From assembly GCA_035606695.1 (NCBI GenBank), contig DATNEW010000022.1:1-64000 (forward strand): DNA of 64,000 bases, read 5' to 3'. The notes beneath the pieces are model-generated. The model did not search any database and was not told the origin of the DNA. It saw only the letters and a list, made by a program, of their open reading frames with translations. Below are positions 36,032 to 64,000 of the stretch, piece by piece (position 1 is the stretch's first letter; each line of letters starts with the position of its first letter). Both the position numbers and the translations under genes were made by a program. The DNA comes from Gemmatimonadaceae bacterium (GTDB lineage: Bacteria > Gemmatimonadota > Gemmatimonadetes > Gemmatimonadales > Gemmatimonadaceae).

Positions 36032-36064
36032 AAACGGGCCGCCGATTGGCGGCCCGTTTTGTCT
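36032..36064 (+). terminator. Intrinsic terminator of groESL
   Basis: Perfect 12-bp stem AAACGGGCCGCC / GGCGGCCCGTTT (36032-36043 with 36048-36059), GATT loop, T-rich tail TTTTGTCTT. It starts 33 bases after the groEL stop. Confidence 0.88.
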
Positions 36065-58475: not shown

Positions 58476-59774
58476 ATGAGCGCTCTGCAGTTCATCGTCC
58501 AAGGTGGACAACGCCTGTCCGGAACGATTCGCCCGTCCGGCAACAAGAACGCCGCGCTGCCCATCGTGTGCGCGGCCCTGCTCACCGAACACCCGGTGAC
58601 GCTCGAGAACGTGCCGCGCATTCGCGACGTCGAGACGCTGGTCGAGCTCATCGCCACCCTGGGCGTCGACGTCGCGTGGTCGGAGCGCAACACGCTTCAG
58701 ATTCATGCGAAAACCGTAAAGTCGGCGAGCCTCGACCCCAAGCTGTGCCGAAAGATTCGCGCGTCGATTCTTCTGGCCGCGCCGCTCCTCGCGCGCTGCG
58801 GCGAGATCGAGCTGCCGCCGCCGGGCGGCGACGTCATCGGCCGCCGCCGCGTCGACACGCATTTTCTGGCGCTCGAGCGCCTCGGCGCCCACTTCGAGCT
58901 CGATGAGAGCTTCCATCTCTCCACGAAAGGCCTCCGCGGCGCCGACGTCTTTCTCGATGAGCCCAGCGTCACGGCCACCGAGAACGCGATCACCGCGGCC
59001 GTTGCCGCGAGCGGCACCACCATCCTCCGCAACGCGGCCAGCGAGCCACACGTTCAGGACCTCTGCCACTTTCTCATCGCGCTCGGCGCCGACATCGACG
59101 GCGTCGGCACGAACAAGCTGACCATCGAAGGTGGACGACAGCTCGGCGGCGCGACGCATCGTATCGGCCCGGACCACATCGAGGTCGGTTCGTTTATCGG
59201 CATGGCGGCCGCCACGGGATCGGAGCTGCGCATCGCGGACGCCGGCATCGAACATCTCCGGTCGACGCTCATGGGCTTCGCGCGCCTCGGCGTCTCGTGC
59301 AAGATCGAAGGAGCGGATCTCGTCGTGCCCGCCGAGCAGGAAAAGGTCATTCAGAGCGATCTCGGCGGGCACGTGCCGAAGCTCGAGGATCAGCCGTGGC
59401 CGGCTTTCCCGGCGGACACGATGTCGATCGCGCTCGTCGCCGCGACGCAATGTACCGGGCTCATTCTGATCCACGAGAAGATGTTCGAGTCGCGCCTCTT
59501 CTTCGTCGATAAGCTGGTGGGCATGGGCGCGCGCATCGTGCTGTGCGATCCGCACCGCGCGCTCGTCTCCGGTCCGTCGCGGCTGCGCGGCAGCACCGTC
59601 GATTCACCCGACATTCGCGCCGGCATGGCGATGCTCGTCGCCGCGATGACGGCCGACGGCGAGAGCACCATCAACAACGTCGCCCAGATCGAACGCGGCT
59701 ACGAGCGCATCGACGAGCGGCTGCGCGCGCTCGGTGCCAAGATCGAGCGCGTGGAAGACCGCCGGGCAAAATGA
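58476..59774 (+). CDS. murA: UDP-N-acetylglucosamine 1-carboxyvinyltransferase MurA (Cys-to-Asp variant)
   Basis: First committed step of peptidoglycan synthesis: transfers enolpyruvate from PEP to UDP-GlcNAc. 432 residues, inverse alpha/beta-barrel fold. Opening [23 protein letters not shown], and the active-site loop [18 protein letters not shown]. The position that is Cys115 in E. coli is Asp119 here. Asp at this site is found naturally in Mycobacterium, Chlamydia and Borrelia, keeps activity and prevents alkylation by fosfomycin. ATG 58476 gives [12 protein letters not shown]. Preceded by a 240-base gap (58236-58475), shared with the divergent DUF948 gene, in which I see only a short dyad near 58312-58328. 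pgeF follows. Confidence 0.95.
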
Positions 59775-59784
59775 GCGTCGCATT

Positions 59785-59811
59785 GTCATCCTGAGCAAAG
59801 CGAAGGATCAG
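59785..59811 (+). repeat. GTCATCCTGAGC-type dispersed repeat before pgeF
   Basis: GTCATCCTGAGCAAAGCGAAGGATCAG is a half-unit of a very common bacterial intergenic repeat. Its GAAGGAT end lies about 10 bases before the GTG of pgeF and is the only Shine-Dalgarno-like sequence there. Confidence 0.8.
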
Positions 59812-59817
59812 CTTTTT

Positions 59818-60567
59818 GTGACGATTCTCGAACAATCGGAAGTCATCGGCGACTTCGCGGAGTTCGGCATTCGCGCCTTCGCGACGTCGCGTGATGCCGG
59901 AACGTTCGGCGTAAATGGCGGTGAGCCGGTCAGCGAGGTGATGGGCCGATGGAACCAGCTGCGCCAGGAGCTCGCGCCAAGCAGCGCGGGAATCGCGGGA
60001 ACCGCGGGGACCGCGGGAACCGCGGGCGGTGTGCGGCTCGCGAGCGCGTCACAGGTCCACGGCAATCGCGTCGTCGTCCATCATCGCGGCTGGGAGGGCT
60101 GGCTGCGCGGCGATGCCGCCGACGGCCACGTTTCGATCGAGCGCGGCACCGCGCTGGCCGTGAGCGTCGCCGACTGCGTGCCGGTCTTCGTCGCGCATCC
60201 GTCCGGCGCGATCGCCTTGCTGCATTCCGGCTGGCGAGGCACGGTGGCGCGCATCATCGAGCGCGGGATCGAAGCGCTGATTCATCGCGGACTCCCGGCC
60301 AGCGAGTTGCGAGTACACACCGGCGTCGCGATCTGCGGAGAGTGCTACGAGGTGAGCCCCGATGTTTACGGACAGCTCACCGGCAAGGTCGTCGACAAAC
60401 CGGCCACCGTCGATTTGCGCGCCATCATTGCCGACCACGCGCGCGGCATGGGTGTCAGGCACATCACGTCGAGCCCATCGTGCACGCGATGCGACAACGC
60501 GCGTTTCTTCTCGCACCGTGCCGGCGATTCCGGACGCCAGCTCGGCGTCATGTTCGCCGACGAATGA
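59818..60567 (+). CDS. pgeF: PgeF/YfiH-family (LACC1-like) multicopper-type enzyme
   Basis: 249 residues. Members act as purine nucleoside phosphorylase/adenosine deaminase in vitro and, as PgeF, correct peptidoglycan precursors; the murA neighbour fits the latter. The metal site is intact: ASQVHGNRVVVHH (His), SVADCVPVFV (Cys), LLHSGWRGTV (His). C-terminal ITSSPSCTRCDNARFFSHRAGDSGRQLG is conserved. GTG 59818 was chosen because the frame upstream runs through murA and a repeat. Near residue 60 a 9-bp tandem repeat encodes AGTAGTAGTAG in a variable loop. Confidence 0.88.
   Translation: MTILEQSEVIGDFAEFGIRAFATSRDAGTFGVNGGEPVSEVMGRWNQLRQELAPSSAGIAGTAGTAGTAGGVRLASASQVHGNRVVVHHRGWEGWLRGDAADGHVSIERGTALAVSVADCVPVFVAHPSGAIALLHSGWRGTVARIIERGIEALIHRGLPASELRVHTGVAICGECYEVSPDVYGQLTGKVVDKPATVDLRAIIADHARGMGVRHITSSPSCTRCDNARFFSHRAGDSGRQLGVMFADE
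59986..60030 (+). repeat. 9-bp in-frame tandem repeat inside pgeF
   Basis: Five consecutive 9-base units of GCGGGAACC type: 59986-59994 and 60004-60012 differ by one base, 59995-60003 and 60013-60021 are exact, and the last (60022-60030) is degenerate. They encode repeated Ala-Gly-Thr. The unit length is a multiple of three, so copy-number change would alter only loop length. Confidence 0.85.
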
Positions 60568-60587: not shown

Positions 60588-61634
60588 CTATTTGATGGCG
60601 GCCGAGTTGACCGCGGTCGAGGCGAGCGCGACCGCGCGCTCGAGCGCGGCATCGACGCCGCGCGTGGCATCGGCGGCCGTGGCCTTCACGACGATGTCCG
60701 GCGCCAATCCAACGCCTTCGAACGTGGCGTGGTCCGGCGTGTACTCGATCCATTCCGAGAGCTGAAAGCTCCAACCATTCGGAAGCTCTCGGGTGATCGG
60801 ACCGCCCGACGCACCGCCCGTGGTATCGCCCACGACAGTTGTCGCCGGGATCGTGCGCATGGCGAGCACGAAGTCCTCTCCGCTGCTGAACACGTGGCGG
60901 TTCGTCAACACGATCACGCGGCCGGCGAAGTGCGTGCCTTTGGGCTCGATCGTTTCCGCCATGTCCGCCGTGAAGTCGGCGTGCGCGGGGCCGTTCCTGC
61001 GCCGCACGTAGCCGTACGTTCGCTTGCGGTCGGCGAAGCGGCCGGCGACGTCCGCCGCGAGCAGATAGTTGCCGCCGCCGTTGTCACGAACGTCGACGAT
61101 CAGCGCGTTCGCGTTTCCTAATGCGCGAACGACGGCGTCCATGTCGCCGGCCCATCCGTCGCCCTGAAAGCTGGCGATGCGAACATACCCGACCGTCGGC
61201 GCCACGTAACCGTACACGAGCTCACCGTCGGGCGTCGAATCGGTACTCGTGACGTACCGCGCCATCGTCCGCCGTTCATCATGAAACGTCGGCGCTGCCT
61301 CGGCGTGCGAGATGTACCGCATCGTGGTGGTCGCGCCTAGCGGCGTCAGGGAGACGTGAACGTCGTGCAGCTCGCTTAGCAATTGCGACAGGACCGTGGC
61401 GAATTGCGCGTCCGTCGTCGCCGCGAGCGCGATCGGGCGGTAGTGCGCGCCCAGCGAGTCCCAGTCGATGTGCTTCAGGTCGAAGTACGAATAGTGGAGG
61501 TCGACCTGATGCCAGAGATCGTCGAAGACGGTGCCGTGGTCGGCCACGGAATTCGTGCCGACGATCGAGTCGGCGCACCCGGCGGCGAGCAGCAGCGTCA
61601 GGCCGGCGACGAACCCGCGCGAAGTCAGGCGCAC
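60588..61634 (-). CDS. S41-family peptidase lipoprotein
   Basis: 348 residues. Lipoprotein signal RLTSRGFVAGLTLLLAAGC (lipobox LAAGC). A helical N-terminal part (FDDLWHQVDLHYSYFDLKHIDWDSLGAHYRPIA, typical of tail-specific protease relatives) is followed by the S41 core: GYVRIASFQG, ALIVDVRDNGGGNYLLA, VLTNRHVFSSGEDFVLAMR (nucleophile Ser in SSGEDF) and GGASGGPITRELPNGW. No PDZ domain is evident. GTG 61634 lies 3 bases after the stop of the upstream outer-membrane-like gene, so the two form a unit. Confidence 0.88.
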   Translation of the reverse strand: MRLTSRGFVAGLTLLLAAGCADSIVGTNSVADHGTVFDDLWHQVDLHYSYFDLKHIDWDSLGAHYRPIALAATTDAQFATVLSQLLSELHDVHVSLTPLGATTTMRYISHAEAAPTFHDERRTMARYVTSTDSTPDGELVYGYVAPTVGYVRIASFQGDGWAGDMDAVVRALGNANALIVDVRDNGGGNYLLAADVAGRFADRKRTYGYVRRRNGPAHADFTADMAETIEPKGTHFAGRVIVLTNRHVFSSGEDFVLAMRTIPATTVVGDTTGGASGGPITRELPNGWSFQLSEWIEYTPDHATFEGVGLAPDIVVKATAADATRGVDAALERAVALASTAVNSAAIK

Positions 61635-61636
61635 GG

Positions 61637-62491
61637 TCAGCGCGGCCCGCGCGCGCCGAAGCGCGTGGCGAATCCAATGGACAGCGACTGCGTCGCGGCC
61701 TCGAACGGCTGCACGTCGGCAAAGCGCAGAAGCGAGAAGCGATACGCCACGAGCAGGCCGGCGCGGCGTGTCGATGCGGGCGCGAACGTGATCGAGCCAT
61801 CCAGCGCACGAAGCGTGTTGAACGACACCGTCCGGATCGCCACGGGCGTGTAGTCGACTTTCGCTTCGGAGTACGGATGATCGACGAGCCCGGCGATCGG
61901 GGTGCGCACCTCGACACTGGCGACGCCCGAGCGCATCCGCTCGCGCCATACGACGTCGGGGCCGAGTGTGGCCGAAGCCATGAGGAAGTTCGCGGTGGTT
62001 TCGGTCGGCGTCGCGTAGGCGTGCTGGTTCGAGATGACGCCGCCCGCGAGCGCCAGACCGACGCTCAGAGACCGTGCGGCGTTGTCGACTCCGATTACAG
62101 TGCGCAGCACCGAGACGTGCGCGCCCGCCTCGATGACGTTCTCGCGCGCGGCACTGGCTGCCGTTCCGAGGCGATGTGTTCCGCCGGCGATGCCCGCGTC
62201 GAACGCGAAGGTGCGACTGAGCGCGCGCGCGTACGTTGCCGCGCCGTCGAAGCCCGAGCCGCCGAAGACCAGTGGCGACGCCGTCACATCGTGTTGTCGG
62301 CGTTGCGAGACGCCCACGAGCAGCGTGAGCTCAGTTGGCCGGCGCGTCACGGAGTCCGACTGCGCACGGGCAGGCGACGCAAGGGAACCGAGCATCGACA
62401 GCGCGGCCAGCGTTGCGACTGCCGGGACGCGTGCGATGCGCACCGCGACACGGCGGCGCCAGGCCGGCATCGGCTTGGCTGAATGACTCAT
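61637..62491 (-). CDS. Putative outer-membrane beta-barrel protein
   Basis: 284 residues. Signal peptide with a long basic n-region (RRRVAVRIARVPAVATLAALSMLGSLASPARAQSD). The mature part alternates hydrophobic and polar residues in strand-length stretches (TELTLLVGVSQRRQ, ATYARALSRTFAFDAGIAGGTHRLG, SLSVGLALAGGVISNQHAY, RRAGLLVAYRFSLLRF) and ends in QSLSIGFATRFGARGPR, all consistent with a small barrel. No named family recognised. ATG 62491 chosen to keep the signal peptide. Upstream of the S41 peptidase. Confidence 0.6.
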   Translation of the reverse strand: MSHSAKPMPAWRRRVAVRIARVPAVATLAALSMLGSLASPARAQSDSVTRRPTELTLLVGVSQRRQHDVTASPLVFGGSGFDGAATYARALSRTFAFDAGIAGGTHRLGTAASAARENVIEAGAHVSVLRTVIGVDNAARSLSVGLALAGGVISNQHAYATPTETTANFLMASATLGPDVVWRERMRSGVASVEVRTPIAGLVDHPYSEAKVDYTPVAIRTVSFNTLRALDGSITFAPASTRRAGLLVAYRFSLLRFADVQPFEAATQSLSIGFATRFGARGPR

Positions 62492-62626
62492 TTGTCTGGG
62501 GCGCGGCAGGAGGAGGGAACGACGTCGGTACTTGGTCCTATGGAAAAGACGAGCGCGCGCACGCTTGGTCAATCCCGCACGTGCCCCTTCCCGCATGCAC
62601 TGGAGGGCCTTACTTTACTCTTGCTA

Positions 62627-62645
62627 CGCGACTCTTGTGGTCGCG
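62627..62645 (+). promoter_or_regulatory. Small hairpin next to the rimP leader terminator
   Basis: CGCGAC (62627-62632) pairs with GTCGCG (62640-62645) around a 7-base loop, five bases before the terminator stem at 62650. It could be part of an attenuator fold. Confidence 0.4.
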
Positions 62646-62649
62646 AGTG

Positions 62650-62679
62650 AAATGTGGGGGAGGCTCCCCACATTTTTTT
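62650..62679 (+). terminator. Intrinsic terminator in the rimP-nusA leader
   Basis: Stem AAATGTGGGG / CCCCACATTT (62650-62659 with 62666-62675), 6-base loop, then the T-run extends to 62679. The nearest gene upstream on this strand is pgeF (ends 60567), more than 2 kb away with two minus-strand genes between, so this terminator probably lies within the leader of rimP itself. Confidence 0.85.
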
Positions 62680-62715
62680 GTTCTTGGGTCTTTCTTGCTT
62701 TCGCCTCGACTCGAT

Positions 62716-63183
62716 GTGAAGGACGCGCTGGAAGATGTTGTCGTGTCGCAGCTTGACGCGGTCGGGTACGATCTCGTGGAGCTGCGGCGTGGTGGAACGA
62801 AGAGTCGGCCGTTGCTCGAGGTTCGCATCGATCGGCGCGACGGGCAGGCGGTGAGCGTGGACGATTGTGCCACGGCGTCGCGTGCGCTCGAGGCGCGGTT
62901 GGATGGCAGCGAGCTCGTGTCGCCGCAGTATGTGTTGCAGGTCTCGTCGCCAGGCGAGCGGCCGCTGAACGGGCCGTCCGATTGGCGACGTTTCGTCGGT
63001 GAGTGGGCCAACGCGCTGGCGCCGGATCACGGCGGCCGGTTCGAAGGACGGATTGTGGCGGTCGAAGAAGAAGACGCCGGACGGGCGGTGGTGGTGCTCG
63101 AGCTGAATCAGAAGGGGAGGAAGGTCCAGCGCCGAATTCCGCTGGCTGACGTCAAGGAGGCGCGGCTCGCCTTCAAAATCTAG
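62716..63183 (+). CDS. rimP: Ribosome maturation factor RimP
   Basis: Needed for late 30S subunit maturation. 155 residues. N-terminal domain ALEDVVVSQLDAVGYDLVELRRGG ... LLEVRIDRRDGQAVSVDDCATASRALEARLD, then the conserved YVLQVSSPGERPLNGPSDWRRFVGEW and a C-terminal SH3-like domain. GTG 62716 (MKDALEDVV) is chosen; a TTG at 62695 in frame would add 7 residues. Neither has a strong Shine-Dalgarno site. Followed by nusA, as in most bacteria. Confidence 0.92.
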   Translation: MKDALEDVVVSQLDAVGYDLVELRRGGTKSRPLLEVRIDRRDGQAVSVDDCATASRALEARLDGSELVSPQYVLQVSSPGERPLNGPSDWRRFVGEWANALAPDHGGRFEGRIVAVEEEDAGRAVVVLELNQKGRKVQRRIPLADVKEARLAFKI

Positions 63184-63278: not shown

Positions 63279-64000
63279 GATGGTCAGTTCTGCAGAGATT
63301 CTCGCCGCGTTTCGCGAGGTATCGAACACCAAGCAGCTCGATCGCGCGGAACTGTACGCGTTGCTCCAGGACGGCATTCTCGCCGCCCTCGCCAAGAAAT
63401 ACGGGCCGAACGTCAAGGCCGAAGTCGACATCGATGACGGCAAGGGCGACATTCGCATCGTCCTCCTGCGCACGGTCGTCTCCGACGTTCAGGATCCCAG
63501 CAACGAGATCTCGATCGACGACGCCAAGGCGTTCGACGAGTCGTTCGAGATGGGCGACGTCATGGAAGAGCCGGTGGACTTCGCCGTCTTCGGCCGCGCC
63601 GCCGTGCAGGCCGCCAAACAGCGCATCATTCAACGCGTCCGTGAAGGCGAGCGCACGCGCATTCGCGACGAGTTCGCGACGCGCGTCGGCGACCTCCTCT
63701 CGGGCGAAGTGCAACAGATCGAGCGCGGCAAGCTCGTCATCATGCTCAACAAGTTTCGCGAGGCGGAAGCCATCATTCCGTATCGCGAGCAGAATCATCG
63801 CGAGCACTTTCATCAAGGCGAGCCGATTCGCGCCGTCCTGAAGCGCGTCGAAGAAACGCCCAAGGGGCCTCGCCTGATCTTCAGCCGCGGCGATCCGCTC
63901 TTCGTGAAGGCGCTGTTCAAGCTCGAGGTGCCCGAGATCCAGCAGAACATCGTGGAGATCCGGGCCGCGGCCCGCGAAGTGGGCAGCAGGACAAAAATTG
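63279..64000 (+). CDS. nusA: Transcription factor NusA (3' end outside the window)
   Basis: RNA-polymerase-associated factor for pausing, termination and antitermination. The first 240 residues are visible: the N-terminal polymerase-binding domain (SSAEILAAFREVSNTKQLDRAELYALLQDGILAALAKKYG ... GDVMEEPVDFAVFGRAAVQAAKQRIIQRVREGE), then the S1 domain (GDLLSGEVQQIERGKLVIMLNKFREAEAIIPYREQ) and the beginning of KH1 (LIFSRGDPLFVKALFKLEVPEI). ATG 63279 with AAGAGGG eight bases upstream. Confidence 0.97.

Follow-up and report, generated by a model that had tools for sequence, protein, structure and literature searches.

A conserved promoter and intrinsic terminator in the rimP-nusA leader of Gemmatimonadota form a likely attenuator, probably under NusA feedback

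The leader of the rimP-nusA-infB operon in Gemmatimonadota carries an intrinsic terminator downstream of a predicted promoter. A terminator placed after an operon's own promoter and ahead of its first gene acts as an attenuator. We consider it likely that the element is an attenuator of rimP-nusA-infB equivalent to the known rimP-leader, with NusA as the factor that most likely stimulates termination; this reading is supported because promoter and terminator are both conserved at rimP across the phylum. NusA is encoded downstream of the attenuator in the same operon, as seen from the gene order, and would probably throttle its own production through the leader terminator. The element was studied in a 64-kb stretch of DNA from a member of the Gemmatimonadaceae (here, the window), in which the following features were identified:

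59734-60567, plus strand: pgeF (Cu-oxidase_4/laccase domain), the nearest upstream plus-strand gene
60588-62491, minus strand: two genes (an S41 peptidase and an unassigned protein) between pgeF and rimP
62588-62593, plus strand: predicted -35 box TTCCCG, degenerate (relatives mostly have TTGACN)
62611-62616, plus strand: predicted -10 box TACTTT, with a 17-bp spacer to the -35 box
62623 (+/-2), plus strand: predicted transcription start, placed 7 nt after the -10 box
62627-62645, plus strand: 5' leader hairpin of 7 bp (stem 62627-62633/62639-62645), adjoining the terminator
62649-62679, plus strand: intrinsic terminator (stem 62649-62676, T7 62673-62679)
62716-63183, plus strand: rimP (155 aa, GTG start, RimP_N and DUF150_C domains of Pfam)
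63280-63999, plus strand: 5' part of nusA (NusA_N, KH and HhH domains), continuing past the window end

The terminator stem, GAAATGTGGGGG-AGGC-TCCCCACATTTT, consists of 12 pairs, 10 of them Watson-Crick and 2 G-U, and 36 bases lie between the end of its T-run and the rimP GTG codon. An initial annotation of this DNA had described a 10-bp stem with a T-run ending at 62679, 36 bases before rimP, together with a small hairpin beside it. The coordinates agree with ours, and the small hairpin was found as the 7-bp hairpin of the leader. Folded from the predicted start, the leader is more stable than its shuffled versions (z of -3.1), with pairing probabilities of 0.8 to 1.0 along the terminator stem and 0.6 for the apical G-U pair. 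An alternative leader fold was rejected, as it needs bases upstream of the predicted start. The terminator hairpin has a predicted energy of -16.4 kcal/mol, which together with T7 makes it strong. By our own stem-plus-T score, it ranks third among the terminator-like sites of the window, and the sole sites outscoring it are strong terminator-like sites at 2254-2291 and 36034-36057 (plus strand). The generic scan returned 4 sites against 2.7 expected, which is weak evidence alone and not separable from chance. The case for the terminator is carried by its conservation.

The bases 3' of the T-run (62680-62684) are also conserved in the family, often as GTTCT or ATTCT. GTTCT resembles boxA, a reading that was rejected: no boxA-like sequence was found with the pattern used upstream of the 16S gene in six relatives, and a search for 16S in the window's own genome gave no match. 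An L20 leader was likewise rejected (E of 7.3, far below its cut-off).

When the genes were followed beyond the window, NusA was found to have 445 aa in full, and the operon order rimP-nusA-L7Ae-family gene-infB was confirmed. On the upstream side, pgeF ends 2.1 kb before the leader element and only minus-strand genes lie between, in agreement with the earlier statement that no plus-strand gene is found within 2 kb. The neighbourhood of rimP was checked in 68 loci for the S41 peptidase gene and the unassigned minus-strand gene, and neither turned up. In 61 of these 68 loci, pgeF is co-directional and at most 400 nt upstream of rimP, an arrangement that would suit a terminator ending upstream murA-pgeF transcription and insulating rimP. 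This explanation is nevertheless highly improbable. In most leaders, the terminator is separated from pgeF by the rimP promoter, and for the window itself the explanation is contradicted by the absence of a plus-strand gene within 2 kb. Moreover, pgeF is displaced or was not found in the window and in five other loci (L036, L063, L092, L105 and L111), and the terminator stays with rimP in all of them, which indicates that the element belongs to rimP and bears out the earlier proposal that it serves no preceding gene.

Conservation of the hairpin within the phylum, which the initial annotation had suggested examining, was evaluated in loci gathered by RimP and NusA searches among the Gemmatimonadaceae and the rest of the Gemmatimonadota, giving 90 distinct leaders after de-duplication. 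An intrinsic terminator was present in 89 of them, with a median distance to rimP of 29 nt, and deeper lineages of the phylum carry one too. In the sole leader without a recognized terminator (L104), T8 follows a stem that looks degraded; the sequence there, GTCGAAGTTCGGCCCGCACTTTTTTTTATG, keeps the 3' half intact and differs in the 5' half. Within the family, the stem is near-invariant (AATGTGGGG..CCCCACATT, followed by T6-8). Class- and phylum-level relatives also carry a stem of the same type with a U-run; variants include GAAGTGTGGGG..CCCCACACTT in other lineages, AAGTGGGGG..CCCCCACTT at class level and AGAGTGGGG..CCCCACTCT in the deepest relatives, and in part of the order the stem is GCGGGC..GCCCGC, with U8 and then ATG after it. 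The changes in the stem are compensatory. With the G-block set aside, pairing holds in 84% of stem cells, compared with 69% (SD 2) after shuffling; 0 of 1,000 shuffles reached the observed value, in a control that leaves the relatedness of the sequences in.

To this is added the uniqueness of the strict stem. Of 59 genomes, 29 contain the pattern TGTGGGG-N1-10-CCCCACATTTTTT, each of them a single time; the reversed control gave 0 matches, and all 29 matches sit 15 to 37 nt before rimP. Genome-wide uniqueness rests on this strict pattern, which does not pick up variants of the stem like GTGTGGGG..CCCCACAC or GCGGGC, and the genomes without a match include lineages with a different stem sequence. 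The region of the 5' hairpin, from the start to the terminator, gave a mean z of -1.4 over 71 leaders, with z below -1 in 41. A hairpin is predicted at the same place in many relatives with a changing sequence, and some lineages have no clear one.

A promoter of the form TTGACN-17-TANNTT was found upstream of the terminator in most leaders, with a score of at least 8.7 in 86% of them and in 1.4% of shuffled leaders. The promoter of the window scores 6.7, below most relatives, and has a poor -35 box, which counts against an attenuator under NusA control here; it aligns with its relatives, the -35 box being matched to TTGCCT, TTGACC and TTCCCG of same-genus leaders. The predicted start at 62623 falls within the range of 62492 to 62650 that had been given for the start of a short leader transcript. 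Across leaders, the distance from the -10 box to the hairpin peaks at 30 to 35 nt. In the window, the predicted terminated RNA would have about 57 nt and the full leader 93 nt. In several genomes of family f2, the -10 box is only about 9 to 14 nt from the hairpin, for a predicted terminated RNA near 35 nt. Six compact f2 leaders (L087, L090, L095, L096, L101 and L112) have a predicted start a few nucleotides before the hairpin and then U8, with the rimP ATG following directly or within about 10 nt. Such compact leaders, reduced to promoter, hairpin, U8 and ATG, are minimal substrates for NusA termination assays.

A promoter followed by a terminator would yield a short RNA, and a Salmonella rimP-leader RNA is bound by ProQ (PMC5391140), both of which would fit an independent small RNA gene, about 57 nt long, whose end falls before rimP by chance. 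We regard this as very improbable. The terminator is the sole strongly conserved sequence, with the 5' hairpin keeping its structure but not its sequence in many relatives, and the unit stays with rimP in the loci examined, at a distance to the start codon held near 29 nt.

For the attenuator reading, we propose that RNA polymerase would start near 62623 and that the first 57 nt or so would fold into the 5' hairpin and the terminator hairpin, the latter with seven U's behind it. At this leader, NusA most likely promotes pausing and the formation of the hairpin. When NusA is plentiful, most transcripts would end near 62677 to 62682; when it is scarce, polymerase would read through into rimP, nusA and infB. 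The sequence evidence shows the terminator, a promoter ahead of it, their joint conservation at rimP, the compensatory changes and, where the strict pattern matches, the uniqueness of the stem; that transcription starts from the predicted promoter, that part of it reads through and that NusA is in control are what we infer. A conserved antiterminator was sought in leader folds from the predicted start and none was found, the terminator being dominant; therefore, read-through must come from incomplete termination or from another factor. The initial annotation had proposed a leader terminator through which NusA could limit its own synthesis. The attenuator part of that proposal is supported by the conserved promoter and terminator and by published cases in the same operon, and the action of NusA on the window copy is put forward by homology with them.

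The strength of the window hairpin also counts against control by NusA, as such a hairpin could terminate well without it, whereas in B. subtilis NusA is described as helping suboptimal terminators (PMC8060035). A fixed attenuator, which would lower operon output by a constant fraction without sensing NusA, could thus be read from the strong hairpin with T7 and from the lack of a visible sensor or antiterminator. We consider it unlikely, given that the stem is conserved in sequence and, in the genomes with a strict-pattern match, confined to this locus, which exceeds what a plain terminator needs, and that NusA feedback has been reported for this operon in B. subtilis and E. coli.

About equally unlikely is control by another factor, such as NusG, hairpin-melting cold-shock proteins, RimP or the L7Ae-family protein of the operon. 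The E. coli operon, for which NusA feedback has been described, is also strongly cold-induced (PMC6511841). NusG aids terminators whose terminal pairs are A-U (PMC8060035), and there is an A-U base in the window stem. The authors who described the rimP-leader also weighed feedback by RimP (PMC2965389). Against these candidates, no kink-turn or other protein-specific motif was noticed on inspecting the leader, and the closest tested case, that of B. subtilis, is reported to respond to NusA.

NusA action at the leader might also involve the stem sequence itself. The GUGGGG..CCCCAC stem could be a recognition signal for NusA or NusA-bound polymerase, beyond a plain terminator, in a phylum-specific feedback design. 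We advance this tentatively, as a possibility short of even, on account of the stem occurring only at the rimP operon where the strict pattern matched, the narrow promoter spacing and the 5' hairpin in many genomes. With a stem that hardly varies and occurs once per genome, it becomes possible to test directly which factor reads the rimP-leader motif.

Overall, comparative evidence extends the rimP-nusA leader attenuator to Gemmatimonadota, in a form missed by Rfam. We found no transcript-end data for Gemmatimonadota in the literature. The idea of NusA feedback is already known, the likely regulator having been named in 2010 and the B. subtilis case published in 2016. The regulatory logic is known; what is added, modestly, is a form that spans the phylum and has a stem sequence of its own.

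In the account of Naville and Gautheret (2010; PMC2965389), no attenuator is more ubiquitous than the rimP-leader; its stem reads GGGc..gCCC, it lacks an antiterminator, and NusA was put forward as the strongest candidate for its regulator. The window terminator resembles it in its place in the rimP-nusA-infB leader, within the published range of 4 to 130 nt before rimP, in its G-rich 5' arm and C-rich 3' arm (GTGGGG..CCCCAC) followed by a U-run, and in its conserved stem sequence without a visible antiterminator. It differs in that the stem of the window and most of the phylum is GUGGGG..CCCCAC instead of GGGc..gCCC, and in that a 5' hairpin precedes the terminator in many Gemmatimonadota genomes. 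As for the exact motif, the window has the GGG..CCC core, whereas the lower-case c and g are absent there and present in other members of the order, whose GCGGGC..GCCCGC-U8-ATG is close to the GGGC-TTTAG-GCCC-T7-ATG of E. coli. Neither the window nor any of 59 relatives matched the Rfam rimP model (RF01770, cut-off of 47 bits), which among 14 control genomes matched E. coli only. Gene and position are the same, but the covariance model is unmatched by these leaders, and the element is therefore not filed under RF01770.

According to a review (PMC12288461, citing Mondal 2016), B. subtilis NusA is autoregulated through NusA-stimulated termination in its 5' leader. As in that attenuator, the terminator of the window lies in the leader of a NusA-encoding operon; the dependence on NusA is reported there and would extend to the window copy by homology. 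The B. subtilis leader is about 180 nt long (PMC2965389), compared with the predicted 93 nt here. In S. agalactiae, short and long RNAs arise from one start at the rimP leader, termination was placed by RNA-seq 31 nt after the start, and NusA feedback was proposed (PMC4448216). This termination distance resembles that predicted for the compact f2 leaders, although S. agalactiae belongs to a different phylum and its leader RNAs were seen by RNA-seq, whereas the Gemmatimonadota leader is predicted from sequence. By gene, position and architecture, as read from the DNA, the element is placed with the general rimP-leader, to which it is equivalent in position.
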